DNA from: Melioribacteraceae bacterium
GTDB lineage: Bacteria > Bacteroidota > Ignavibacteria > Ignavibacteriales > Melioribacteraceae
Assembly (NCBI GenBank): GCA_027030245.1
Contig: JALVFE010000040.1
Coordinates: 62,001-126,000, forward strand
DNA length: 64,000 nt
Direction of reading: 5' to 3'
Shown here: positions 54,141-64,000 of the stretch, piece after piece
Layout: every line of letters begins with the position of its first letter
Position numbering within the stretch: the first letter of the stretch is position 1
Made by a program: the position numbers and the translations under genes
The notes under the pieces: model-generated
What the model saw: only the letters and a program-made list of their open reading frames with translations
Told to the model about the DNA's origin: nothing
Databases searched by the model: none

Positions 54141-54223
54141 TTAAGTTTTGAGACAGCCGCTCCATACCTTGCTATTGTTTGAACATGATTAAATCTTTAA
54201 CTTTTTCTTATTGAAGATTGAAC

Positions 54224-54368
54224 CCCGCGACTTCAGTCGCGGGTTAAGGTCGAACCGCAAAAGAAAAGAACCGATTCATCGGTTTCCACGGCTAATTTAT
54301 AAAAACCGTTGAAACGGTTGCGGGTTATTTATTATGCTTATTCGCTGACCCACGGATGAATCCGTGGG
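54224..54368. repeat. Array of four short hairpins with two-base TC or GA centres
   Basis: Hairpins at 54224-54243 (CCCGCGACT-TC-AGTCGCGGG), 54269-54284 (AACCGAT-TC-ATCGGTT), 54304-54319 (AACCGTT-GA-AACGGTT) and 54349-54368 (CCCACGGAT-GA-ATCCGTGGG). Stem sequences differ, but the centre is always TC or its complement GA. The order TC, TC, GA, GA makes the array symmetric. It resembles REP-type hairpin clusters. Confidence 0.85.
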
Positions 54369-54442
54369 GTTGGCATGTGTTGAAAAACTGAATCAACTAT
54401 TTTATTTCCTATTTCCCCAGAATCATTTTCTTCGCAATAGCT

Positions 54443-54470
54443 GTAGGGACAAGGCATGCCTTGTCCCTAC
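54443..54470. repeat. Perfect 28-bp palindrome
   Basis: GTAGGGACAAGGCA followed directly by its mirror complement TGCCTTGTCCCTAC. It lies 16 bp downstream of the secreted endonuclease gene. There is no T-run on either side, so it is not a standard terminator. Its arms (GTAGGG-AC/GT-CCCTAC) match a palindrome inside the coding region at 62977-62996. Confidence 0.95.
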
Positions 54471-54486
54471 ATGCGATTATTTGATT

Positions 54487-55782
54487 CTATTTCATCAAAA
54501 TCATTTTGCGGGTTTGTACAAAACTGCCGGCGCGGAGTTGGTAAAAATATATTCCGCTCGGTAATCCGCCTGCGGTGGATTTTGCGTTGAATGTTACGGT
54601 GTAAGTTCCCGGGGATTGCTCTTCATTAACCAGTGTTTTTATTTCTCTGCCTAACACATCGTAAATTTTCAGGGTAACGAACCCCACCTCGGTCTTCCCC
54701 TTTGCCAAAGGGGAGGAAGCAGGAGGGGTTGGAATTGTATATTTTATCACGGTTGCCGGATTAAACGGATTTGGATAATTTTGGTATAAAATAAATTTCC
54801 CGGCAATTTTGTAATCATCTTTTACCGAAACCACAGGGTTCATCACAAAATCGGCGAAAACCGGTAAATGGTCGGATGCATAATAAAGCGCATTTGCCAC
54901 ATCCTGATTAACGGCGGAATTTGTTCCTTCATTAATTGATTTGTTAAAATGATTACCGTCGTTGCCAAAAACCGTATAGCTTCCGGGAACATAAAAAATT
55001 CCCGCAGAATCTTTAACTGCTTCAGAATAAAGAATCATATCGAAGCGGTCGTCCAAACCGCCGGTCGATCCGTCATCGGATAAACTTGTTGTTCTTGTAG
55101 ATTGTGTGTGAATGGCAGCAAAACCCGAATTATTATGCCAATTGCCTGCAGCTACGGGATCAAGAAAATAACCGGGCTTGGATTTATCAATTAATTTTTG
55201 ATACGCCGGTTCGGAAGATGAATAAATATTAAAATCACCCAAAACAACATAATTCGTTCCCGGCGGCAGAGCATCGGTATTTTTTCTTAAACTCTCAACT
55301 TCGTTAGCTCTTTGTTGTTCAAGAATTTTTCTTTCACTTTCATTTTTACCTTTACCAGCTTTTAGGTGAAGGGAATAGACTATCAACGTATCGTTTGTAC
55401 TTTTATAAACCAAAGTAAACTTGGAAATATCCCTCAAATCGGTATGAATTGCAACATTGGATATAAATTGAAAAAGCGAATCGCGGAAATACATTGCGTT
55501 ATCCGTATCATATCCATCAATGAATGCGGCTTTCGAGTATGTTGAATCTAAAACATTGTTATAAAATTTATTTACGTAATACGAACCGTCAACTTCTTGA
55601 ATTACCAAAATATCCGGATTTACCGAACCGATAATCTTTTTCAAGTTGGAATCCTTTGTGGGATTCGAAGTCGAATGATAATTCAGCACATTATACGTCA
55701 TTAATCTGATTGATTCCTGACCGTAAACCGAAACGGTAATGAAAAGTAAAATCAACAGTTTGTAAATTCCGGATTTTCGCAT
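54487..55782 (-). CDS. Secreted endonuclease/exonuclease/phosphatase-family protein with T9SS domain
   Basis: About 431 residues from ATG 55782 (AAGGAAA upstream). Signal peptide (YKLLILLFITVSVYGQ), then an EEP (DNase I-like) domain with RLMTYNVLNYH, the metal-binding Glu in VIQEVDG, VLGDFNIYSSSEP and the final DHLPVFADF. The family includes DNases, phosphodiesterases and phosphatases; substrate unknown. The C-terminus is a T9SS sorting domain (QNYPNPFNPATVIKYTIP). The loop after that strand is 17 residues instead of about 4, because a 51-bp palindromic repeat (54680-54730) is inserted in frame. Last gene of the second surface locus. Confidence 0.87.
   Translation of the reverse strand: MRKSGIYKLLILLFITVSVYGQESIRLMTYNVLNYHSTSNPTKDSNLKKIIGSVNPDILVIQEVDGSYYVNKFYNNVLDSTYSKAAFIDGYDTDNAMYFRDSLFQFISNVAIHTDLRDISKFTLVYKSTNDTLIVYSLHLKAGKGKNESERKILEQQRANEVESLRKNTDALPPGTNYVVLGDFNIYSSSEPAYQKLIDKSKPGYFLDPVAAGNWHNNSGFAAIHTQSTRTTSLSDDGSTGGLDDRFDMILYSEAVKDSAGIFYVPGSYTVFGNDGNHFNKSINEGTNSAVNQDVANALYYASDHLPVFADFVMNPVVSVKDDYKIAGKFILYQNYPNPFNPATVIKYTIPTPPASSPLAKGKTEVGFVTLKIYDVLGREIKTLVNEEQSPGTYTVTFNAKSTAGGLPSGIYFYQLRAGSFVQTRKMILMK
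54680..54730. repeat. In-frame palindromic repeat inside the T9SS domain of the EEP-family gene
   Basis: A 51-bp imperfect palindrome with ends AACCCC and GGGGTT and a perfect core CCCCTTTG-C-CAAAGGGG (54697-54713). It adds about 17 codons without shifting the frame, reading PTPPASSPLAKGKTEVG on the minus strand. Other sorting domains of the window have only about four residues at that loop. Confidence 0.85.
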
Positions 55783-55795
55783 TTGGTTTTCCTTA

Positions 55796-56884
55796 TTATT
55801 CAATATCAGTGGATAAAATAAATCTTAAAATTCTGTTGTTGCCCGTATCCAAAACATAAACGGTTTTATCGTGATATGCAACCGCGTGCGGCGAGTTAAA
55901 AATATCGGAGCCGCCGAAAGATTGAAGCTCATCGCCGAACGAACTGAATTTAAATACGCTGTCTTTTTCGGCGTCCGCTACGAAAATATTATTTGCTCCG
56001 TCCAAAGCAACGTCTTCGGGTTTACCGAATCTGCCTACTTGCATCAAATCGTTTGAGAACGCATCGTATTTCGGTTGGTATCCCGAAAAATCCGGCGTTT
56101 GAATATACTTTAACCATTGAACTTTAAAGCTGTTATTTCCGGTTAGCGTTAATATCACATCCAAATTTCTTTTGTTGAACGAAGTCAGCGAACTAATTCT
56201 GTTAGCCGACATCAATCCCGTTCCTTCCGGTTCCAACAGCGGCACTTTACCCAATACAAGCGAATCTTTACCGCTTGCAGATTTAATAAATTTTAAAGTT
56301 AAGATTGCATTATCGCGGTCAACCGGATTTGAGTTATTCGGTCCGGTTCTTGAAACATAAACGGAATTATCGTAGAAAACGCAAACACCGGTGTAATCAC
56401 GATCGGGTCTAGTAAATGCAAAAGGGTCGTCTTTCGGGTTTTGCGGTAAAATCCGTTCAAGTTCCGTGTTATTTATTTGGTGTCCCGCTGCAACCAAATT
56501 AATTCTGTAAACCGCACTGAACGAAGCGGGCACATTGTTGATTAATGTATCGAACCGTGCACAAACAAACAGATTCAGTTTGTAATCTTGAGCAATTGCG
56601 ACCGGGTGCGGTACCGGTTTTGTACCCAATACTTTTCCGGAAATGTCAAGCATTGCAATCCGGTCGTTATCGGTGTCGGCAACATAAATGAAAGGTTCCC
56701 TTCCTACAATCATATCCTGTGGATTGTTAAAACCGGTCCACTCCGGAGACTGTTTAATGTAAAGAGTATCGCTTATGTTTATTGGACCTTTCCCGAGTTG
56801 GTTCAATTCGGTTAAGTCCAATTTTTCTTCACAAGCAGTTGCGAGAATTAACAGCAACAACAATATTTTGTAATATCTTTTCAT
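55796..56884 (-). CDS. NHL/six-bladed beta-propeller lipoprotein
   Basis: About 362 residues from ATG 56884, beginning MKRYYKILLLLLILATAC: a lipoprotein signal with Cys about 18. The mature protein contains NHL/SMP-30-like propeller blades (EPFIYVADTDNDRIAMLDISG near the start, NNIFVADAEKDSVFKFSSFG and KTVYVLDTGNNRILRF near the end). Such propellers bind ligands or proteins; a few are lyases, but no catalytic signature is seen. It starts 1 bp after the PorV-like gene and is followed by the EEP-family gene after 13 bp, so the three are cotranscribed. Confidence 0.82.
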   Translation of the reverse strand: MKRYYKILLLLLILATACEEKLDLTELNQLGKGPINISDTLYIKQSPEWTGFNNPQDMIVGREPFIYVADTDNDRIAMLDISGKVLGTKPVPHPVAIAQDYKLNLFVCARFDTLINNVPASFSAVYRINLVAAGHQINNTELERILPQNPKDDPFAFTRPDRDYTGVCVFYDNSVYVSRTGPNNSNPVDRDNAILTLKFIKSASGKDSLVLGKVPLLEPEGTGLMSANRISSLTSFNKRNLDVILTLTGNNSFKVQWLKYIQTPDFSGYQPKYDAFSNDLMQVGRFGKPEDVALDGANNIFVADAEKDSVFKFSSFGDELQSFGGSDIFNSPHAVAYHDKTVYVLDTGNNRILRFILSTDIE

Positions 56885-62796: not shown

Positions 62797-64000
62797 TTAT
62801 TTTAATAAAATCATTTTCTTAACCGATATCAAATCTCCCGCGGTTAAACGGTAGAAATAAATTCCGGACGATAAAGCACTGGCGTTAAAAACAACTTGGT
62901 AACTGCCCGGTTGTTGTTTTTTGTTTACCAGGGTAGCAACTTCCCTTCCCAGAACATCGTAAATTTTTAATTGAACGGGACGAAAATTTTCGTCCCCTAC
63001 AGCAACTGCGGGAATTGAATATTTAATTGTTGTTGTGGGATTAAACGGATTCGGGTAATTTTGGTAAAGCTCGAACTTATTTGCCAATACCGGATTTTCA
63101 TTAATGGCGGTAACGAATCCGATGAAATCATCGTTTTTTCTCGGCACCAGTTTAAAGTTTCCGAAAGAATAAAAGAGTATTCCCCTTAATTCATCGAAAT
63201 GGTTCCATGTTCTAATTCTGATGGGTTGATTTTCCAGATCGGCGCTCCAGAAATTGTGGTAATCGTGTGTTCCGTCTTGCAATTCCACGCGCATGGAAAC
63301 ACCGGAAGTATCGGCGACCAACATTTCGCCGAAATTTCTGTTCCCGCCCGTACCTTCGTCGGGACCGGGTTCACCGTTTGCATTTTCATCTACCACGGAA
63401 ATATTTTTAAGGGACAATAAAACACCTTCATAAGATTCCGCCGGAAGTTCTTCGGTACCGGATCCATTAATAACCGCAGTGGAAACTTCATACGGTTCGG
63501 GTATTTCATTTCCGCTGCTGTTTACGGTAACAGTTGCGCCGGAAGTTAAATTACCAATTCTCGTAACCCCGAAACTCTCGTTTACAATTCCGGTAACGGT
63601 TACGTTGTCTCCTCTTTTTAAAGCATGTGCATCAGTTCCGAAAACTTGAATTCCGCTCCACGGTCCGGTTCCGTTTTGAATATAGACTTGCGGACCGATT
63701 AAATTTCCGTCGCCTTCGATATCGGATGTATCTGCCGTTACAATTCCACTAACCGTAACCGTGTAATTATTATAACCGCTAAAACCGCTGCCGAACGGAG
63801 AATATTGAACATCTTGAATTGTAAGCGGGCGGTTCAACGTAAAATAGAAGTAAGGGCTTTCTTCACCGCCGATCGGATTTGTTGAGACTGCGCTGTCAGC
63901 ATCAACGGCTTCAATGTAATATGAAATCATTGTAGAATCCGGCTGTCCCGGAATTGTTGCCGACCAAGTCATTGTAAGCGAATCCGTAAGCGTCATGGGA
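62797..64000 (-). CDS. Secreted T9SS protein with OB-fold-like domains, 5' end outside window
   Basis: The frame is open through base 64000, so the N-terminus is missing; 400 codons are seen. The visible part contains an Ig-like strand set (SYYIEAVDADSAVS), an OB-fold-like segment (YTVTVSGIVTADTSDIEG; RGDNVTVTGIVNE) repeated more weakly further on (EGVLLSLKNISVVDEN), as in surface nuclease-associated proteins, and a C-terminal T9SS sorting domain (QNYPNPFNPTTTIKYSIP). The loop after that strand contains AVAVGDENFRP, coded by a palindrome at 62977-62996. It is the first visible gene of the second surface locus. Confidence 0.8.
   Translation of the reverse strand, partial: PMTLTDSLTMTWSATIPGQPDSTMISYYIEAVDADSAVSTNPIGGEESPYFYFTLNRPLTIQDVQYSPFGSGFSGYNNYTVTVSGIVTADTSDIEGDGNLIGPQVYIQNGTGPWSGIQVFGTDAHALKRGDNVTVTGIVNESFGVTRIGNLTSGATVTVNSSGNEIPEPYEVSTAVINGSGTEELPAESYEGVLLSLKNISVVDENANGEPGPDEGTGGNRNFGEMLVADTSGVSMRVELQDGTHDYHNFWSADLENQPIRIRTWNHFDELRGILFYSFGNFKLVPRKNDDFIGFVTAINENPVLANKFELYQNYPNPFNPTTTIKYSIPAVAVGDENFRPVQLKIYDVLGREVATLVNKKQQPGSYQVVFNASALSSGIYFYRLTAGDLISVKKMILLK
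62977..62996. repeat. In-frame palindrome inside a T9SS sorting domain
   Basis: GGGACGAAAATTTTCGTCCC, a perfect 20-bp palindrome, continued on one side by CCTAC. On the coding strand GTAGGGGAC...GTCCC reads VGDENFRP without breaking the frame. The arms match those of the intergenic palindrome at 54443-54470. Confidence 0.9.

Follow-up and report, generated by a model that had tools for sequence, protein, structure and literature searches.

Palindromic elements, including a REP-type 28-mer, within one turn of T9SS sorting domains in a Melioribacteraceae genome

Introduction

Two genes in a 64,000-nucleotide stretch of a Melioribacteraceae bacterium draft genome (the window, analysed at its full length) carry different palindromes, in frame, in the same loop of their T9SS sorting domains. 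Are such loops hot spots for, or tolerant of, the insertion of repeats, as a first, sequence-only reading of the window had suggested, and which process placed the palindromes there?

Palindromic DNA in frame within many unrelated proteins is known from the Rickettsia palindromic elements (RPEs), which are longer elements of Rickettsia. As regards REPs, their movement by RAYTs has been deduced and, to our knowledge, hardly ever been caught. The parts available to us of Di Nocera et al. (2013, PMC3733652) describe GTAG-tagged palindromes, a link to RAYTs and intragenic REPs, among them a pair located at nearly the same position of two recB genes. In the available parts of Quentin et al. (2018, PMC6006769), the double-foot REPs of TnpA-REP (RAYT) subclass 2.4 have 5′ GTAG and 3′ CTAC feet and a long perfect stem; they flank RAYT genes and also occur within the gene, leaving its frame unbroken.

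A palindrome within a sorting domain

The 20-mer GGGACGAAAATTTTCGTCCC was placed exactly at 62977–62996 of the window, where it had first been read, but the CCTAC extension ascribed to it needs a small correction: CTAC comes next on the plus strand and the run is CCCCTAC. The 20-mer is the core of a 28-bp palindromic element of the double-foot REP type on the coding (minus) strand, GTAGGGGACGAAAATTTTCGTCCCGTTC (62973–63000), with a degraded 3′ foot (CTAC worn to GTTC) and 26/28 identity to a copy in a RAYT gene (C21, see below). In frame, the element encodes VGDENFRPV. When the loop DNA was shuffled 1000 times, the palindrome score of the element was never reached.

The host is a partial gene (62797–63999, minus strand) that is cut by the end of the window and whose frame runs to 721 aa in the genome. 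The element lies in the β1-β2 turn of its T9SS type A sorting domain (62800–63081, minus strand), identified by profile matches (TIGR04183, 47.1 bits, cut-off 23; PF18962, 47.7 bits, cut-off 27) and a structural model. In the AlphaFold model (pLDDT 86.1, with 63 domains of the same genome as alignment input) the insert makes up the turn that joins strands 16–23 and 34–41. A Foldseek search of the PDB with this model gave CD47 as the top match and many Ig-like folds, with T9SS domains at ranks 3 (8glk_D) and 16 (8qb1); a sequence search of the PDB with the domain returned only two weak matches (E = 0.042 and 0.48). The turn AVAVGDENFRP has 11 residues against 4 in an ordinary domain, in agreement with the initial estimate of 11 versus about 4. 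In the counting used below, which includes P and Vx, these lengths are 14 and 7.

The second gene (54487–55803, minus strand) encodes an Exo_endo_phos family protein (PF03372, 54.4 bits) with a sorting domain (TIGR04183, 32.8 bits). A 51-bp imperfect palindrome of the type here called SPL, TPPASSPLAKGKTEVGF (54680–54730, minus strand; L095), was confirmed in frame in the equivalent turn. Directly past the stop codon lies an intact intergenic 28-mer, GTAGGGACAAGGCATGCCTTGTCCCTAC (54443–54470, unstranded). As already noticed in the first reading, this 28-mer shares its length and its GTAGGG...CCCTAC arms with the element at 62973–63000, while the cores differ.

Sorting-domain turns across the genome

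Across its 3.81 Mb and 40 contigs, the genome had 121 matches to TIGR04183 (all genomes used are draft assemblies, and several bear the name MAG). All but the 11 weakest were fetched (110), and 88 could be parsed; the 22 unparsed ones include a domain with a 32-residue turn (L087). The β1-β2 turn had 7–8 residues in 48 of the 88 parsed domains and 10–23 residues in the other 40. Following the check proposed with the original observation, turn lengths were combined with a palindrome test over the parsed domains. Palindromic DNA (score ≥7) was present in 30/40 long turns and 0/48 short turns, against means of 0.47 (long) and 0.28 (short) palindromic turns in shuffled DNA. The added turn length is therefore mostly palindrome, and the census supports a hot spot for, or tolerance of, insertion in this loop. 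Length variation without palindromic DNA, which would have spoken for chance, was mostly absent but did occur, in 10/40 long turns. The proposed search for GTAGGG-type arms accounted for few cases, since only 3/88 turns have them.

By type of insert, the 40 long turns comprised 22 SPL, 6 NPPF, 3 GTAG 28-mers, 5 'RET' and 4 others. SPL elements are built as CCTCCCC..GGGGAGG and NPPF elements as CCCCCC..GGGGGG; being alike in build, the two may be related. The 28-mers are those of the host domain described above (L030), of L008 and, with a different core, of L058. One of the four other long turns (L085) contains the palindrome CCCTCTCC. The number of unlike palindrome families in this turn is three to four. 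The five 'RET' turns (L029, L066, L069, L071 and L075) read PGxxKRETxxVK and lack a palindrome.

The pattern CYCCCCTTTNNNAAAGGGGRG, with up to two mismatches, was found at 40 places in the genome and its reversal at none. Sorting-domain matches enclose 27 of the 40 places, and two more (C2:47076, C26:74481) lie in domain remnants that still read SSPLAKGRTEEGFVTLKIY. Among the remaining 11, eight form four close pairs of palindromes.

The 28-mer family and RAYT genes

The pattern GTAGGG-N16-CCCTAC, with up to one mismatch, had 29 places in the genome, compared with 3 for the reversed pattern. The copy at 62973–63000, with two foot mismatches, falls outside this list. Two of the 29 places are in sorting-domain turns, six are within 100 bases after sorting-domain matches, three are in RAYT genes, two adjoin a RAYT and 16 are elsewhere.

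An intact copy of the core at 62977–62996 occurs at C21:47456, in frame within a RAYT that reads MPNHIHGIIIIDYKN-VGDENFRPLQ-HNTNLSNIIKGFK and has one in-frame TGA. The frame of the C16 RAYT is open; 28-mers lie on both sides of this gene as well as inside it, where the element differs from that of L058 at 4/28 bases, in two complementary pairs; the C30 RAYT bears a third version in frame. All three RAYTs of the genome thus hold an in-frame 28-mer in one loop. These RAYTs were missed by a search with PF01797 and were found by protein search. Among the 31 RAYT loci looked at, 20 could be parsed (the own three included), and 15 of these had a palindrome score ≥9 in that loop. One of the 11 unparsed loci, the C31 RAYT of G013, has the same 28-mer in frame inside the gene and on both flanks.

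The 28-mer family and the intact C21 copy fit the feet 5′ GT[AG]G and 3′ C[TC]AC on a long hairpin, whereas the 3′ foot of the window element is GTTC. The 28-mers also occur both beside RAYT genes and in frame within them, as is characteristic of double-foot REPs (PMC6006769, in the parts available), with which they share feet, long stem and placement. The enzymes fit the motifs of subclass 2.4 in part: the C16 RAYT has the NHIH and WQ motifs but YIIENP in place of YIxNNP, the C30 RAYT has DHVH instead of NH[IFV]H, and the profile scores were below cut-off (NF047646, 60.6 bits against 80; Y1_Tnp, 18 against 23).

Another locus (L269; C25:442, 3423 and 6681) has three 28-mers, all with an identically worn foot and spaced by about 3 kb, which suggests that they are part of a repeated unit.

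Identity of elements and flanks, and the origin of the inserts

SPL elements were 90% identical (median), in contrast to 67% for the flanking domain DNA and 49% at third positions; the element was more alike than its flank in 209/210 pairs (one of the 22 SPL domains dropped out of this comparison). NPPF elements behaved likewise, with medians of 91% for the elements (79–100%) and 68% for the flanks (61–74%) and the element higher in 15/15 pairs. L096 and L099 shared 47/47 bases between flanks of 61% identity, and the 28-mers of L008 and L030 shared 27/28 between flanks of 73%, while the core of L058 differs (50–54%). Since the elements far exceed the surrounding domain DNA in identity, these values argue for repeated insertion or element-sized copying behind the like elements.

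We consider it likely that a mobile palindrome of the double-foot REP/RAYT type came in frame into the exposed turn of the β1-β2 hairpin, and that this turn repeatedly accepts REPs and at least two other families. The 28-mers would be inserted by single-strand transposition of the RAYT type or by some related process. Most insertions into genes would be lost, whereas the hairpin turn would tolerate them without loss of the fold, so that REPs and the other palindromic families could accumulate there; short-tract conversion between domains may spread the elements further, and the tagged proteins would presumably still be exported. The same elements occur in diverged domains, orthologs carry unlike elements, and the same palindrome lies in and beside RAYT genes. 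The association with RAYTs was seen for the 28-mer only, and the SPL and NPPF elements are tied to no transposase. The turn gains a variable net length, which does not follow from one clean insertion, and the data examined contained no clean pair of near-identical genes with one turn filled and the other empty.

Much of this pattern could also arise if short-tract gene conversion or template switching copied the turn with its palindrome between domains, new insertions being rare, a process that we regard as possible though on balance unlikely as the main cause. It would account for insert types being shuffled relative to the domain tree, for identity next to the turn being raised in the first 6 bases only, and for L029, whose DNA matches that of L045 at 92% beyond the turn, whereas the turn itself is a different one and the front part is 79% identical. 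Conversion, however, explains neither the arrival of a first copy nor the presence of the same palindromes in RAYTs, and its tract would have to barely exceed the length of the element. In five turns (L030, L008, L058, L156 and L257) the palindrome stops 2 nt short of the LKIYD codons, and in seven (six turns of the MAG Tobar13.5m-G5 and L254) it stops 11 nt short of them. These two positions speak for more than one event, although deletions could also have shifted the ends.

An improbable alternative is that a few old insertions were followed by duplication of sorting domains, together with their palindromes, onto many genes, the concentration in the turn then being one of domain duplication. 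L045, L046 and L070 do share a block from the domain past the stop codon at 89–93% while their gene bodies are mutually dissimilar. The SPL label is also clustered on the domain tree (13 changes; 500 shuffles had a mean of 19.7, and none was as low), and some copies therefore spread along with the domain; this tree is based on 80 columns, and most of its forks are open. On the other hand, domains with like inserts (67% identical) were no closer than those with unlike inserts (68%), starred sister pairs in the tree are of unlike type (L095 SPL with L099 NPPF, L058 28-mer with L073 SPL), and orthologs bear unlike palindromes (see below). In the comparison of tree and flanks, domain duplication alone left the distant pairs unexplained, with the SPL copies partly clustered.

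Orthologs of the two window genes

The gene with the element at 62973–63000 was searched in 39 genomes (its own and 38 relatives), and 30 loci were read, three of them without the domain. Outside the genus, all 23 readable domains had a plain 7-aa turn. The three readable turns within the genus had 12–13 aa: two were non-palindromic, and the third (G001, L156) we read as a probable decayed copy of the 28-mer, since it matches the family at 22/28 positions and the next best site in that locus at 18. By arm score L156 is non-palindromic, as 981/1000 shuffles equalled it. For comparison, L152, L153, L251 and L255 match the family at 12–15 of 28 positions.

The second window gene had a readable domain in 15 of 19 loci, with six palindromic turns, five 7-aa turns and four long turns without a palindrome, so that here, too, length and palindrome do not always go together. 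The palindromic turns are the SPL element of the window, NPPF in G002, a worn NPPF in G001, GTAGCACAGAATACTATTCTGTGCTAC in G014, GTAGGGAACGGGCATGCCCGTTCAGTAC in G016 (the entire score comes from the inner 18 bases) and TCCCTCTCCTTACCAAGGAGAGGGA in G026. One turn of one gene thus holds five types of palindrome, or none, across orthologs.

Selection of the palindrome for its own function, as an mRNA hairpin, a terminator or an encoded peptide, would fit the six of 29 28-mers that follow sorting-domain genes within 100 bases. We find it very hard to reconcile with orthologs that show unlike palindromes and peptides, or none, and with the plain turn outside the genus. A chance palindrome in a variable loop, to which the long turns without a palindrome might point, was ruled out by the shuffles for all practical purposes and also conflicts with the recurrence of the same 28-mer core elsewhere in this and other genomes.

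Palindromes in relatives and other genomes

The exact 24-mer of the element occurred in 11 stretches of a collection of genome contigs, eight in Melioribacteraceae bacterium Tobar13.5m-G5 and one each in three other MAGs. Six of the eight Tobar13.5m-G5 copies are in sorting-domain turns, one is in a RAYT and one elsewhere. In the six turns, the elements are 96–100% identical, against 56–72% over the next 150 bases and 60–84% over the 25–75 bases before. The copy in SpSt-1166 is joined to a sorting domain missing its middle, and that in NAT134 is not in a turn. A contig of a Patescibacteria MAG, possibly misbinned, carries the exact 24-mer outside any sorting domain, within a 373-aa frame of another kind (L286).

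SPL/NPPF copies were in the turn in G001 (2/2), G002 (4/4), G031 (1/1) and G010 (8 of 12 looked at, out of 16; L242 was assigned by eye, and one copy is in a shortened domain). Four other relatives had none in the turn among 11 copies looked at (G028, 5 of 6; G017, 3; G021, 2; G023, 1), and some of these non-turn copies are in frame in other long frames. Exact 28-mers of relatives were in a sorting-domain turn in 0/34 cases examined, repeated and own copies left aside, which speaks against landing in this turn as a general rule; the exact pattern passes over copies with worn feet, such as L257 of G016. Four of the 34 lie after sorting-domain genes and two in RAYT genes. In exported-looking proteins of G013, three (L222, L234 and L238) occupy, in frame, the FEIERS-W loop of a different domain, a second turn that takes 28-mers.

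A bolder reading would make the sorting-domain turn a true landing pad, preferred by palindromes belonging to two or more unrelated mobility systems for its DNA sequence or its single-stranded or hairpin-prone state. Sorting domains would then be a safe harbour and reservoir of REPs, with the same peptide-coding palindrome traded between the loops of RAYTs and exported proteins. We hold this to be doubtful.

Relation to known systems and significance

The elements described here and RPEs are both in-frame palindromes in proteins, but the former are 28–51 bp long, prefer one turn and, for the 28-mer, have a link to RAYTs. Given the general description of RPEs as longer repeats, the size of the present elements suggests that they work like RPEs without being members of that group. 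Double-foot REPs within their own transposase gene have already been published, and the new part is the hot spot in the sorting domain. REPs in RAYT genes are reported, and insertions in unrelated genes cited, in the available parts of PMC6006769; those parts contain no recurrent landing in one turn of T9SS sorting domains. In those of PMC3733652, most intragenic REPs other than the recB pair are at differing sites, whereas here several palindrome families share one turn of one domain family. The open-licence literature on T9SS, REPs, palindromes and Ignavibacteria, as far as its text was accessible, contained no report of this sorting-domain turn.

The turn occurs about 100 times in this genome and, with and without an insert, in orthologs. 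It works as a natural trap for insertions, allowing several palindrome families to be compared with respect to target, frame, decay and turnover. Mobile DNA is here a route to new surface peptides for exported proteins. It also calls for caution, since the length of the sorting-domain turn reflects more than protein evolution.

Palindromes in the 3′ tails

Downstream of the second window gene, the 3′ tail contains further short palindromes, recognized by eye, at 54224–54243, 54269–54284, 54304–54319 and 54349–54368 (together 54224–54368, unstranded). Similar tails also follow other sorting-domain genes, and 42 tail matches were found in the genome. The palindrome at 54304–54319 is identical to a REP-like sequence of Caldithrix abyssi, AACCGTTgaAACGGTT, given in the available part of PMC5317091. 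The match with Caldithrix is to the tail rather than to the turn; in the genome studied here, the palindrome is also seen flanking two IS200-like transposase genes. The tail palindromes AACCGTTTCAACGGTT and AAACCGATGAATCGGTT flank two IS200-like Y1 transposase genes (L185, C32:105860-110533; L119, L120), so the tails could be left over from that IS200-like element.

A repeat of 600–700 bp, 89–93% identical among C14 (L032), C26 (L034) and C38 (L036), was also present in C2 (L031), and its analogue in the window lies at about 54200–54780. Beginning at the sorting domain, it passes the stop codon and takes in a 28-mer as well as other palindromes, whereas upstream of it the gene bodies have no similarity.
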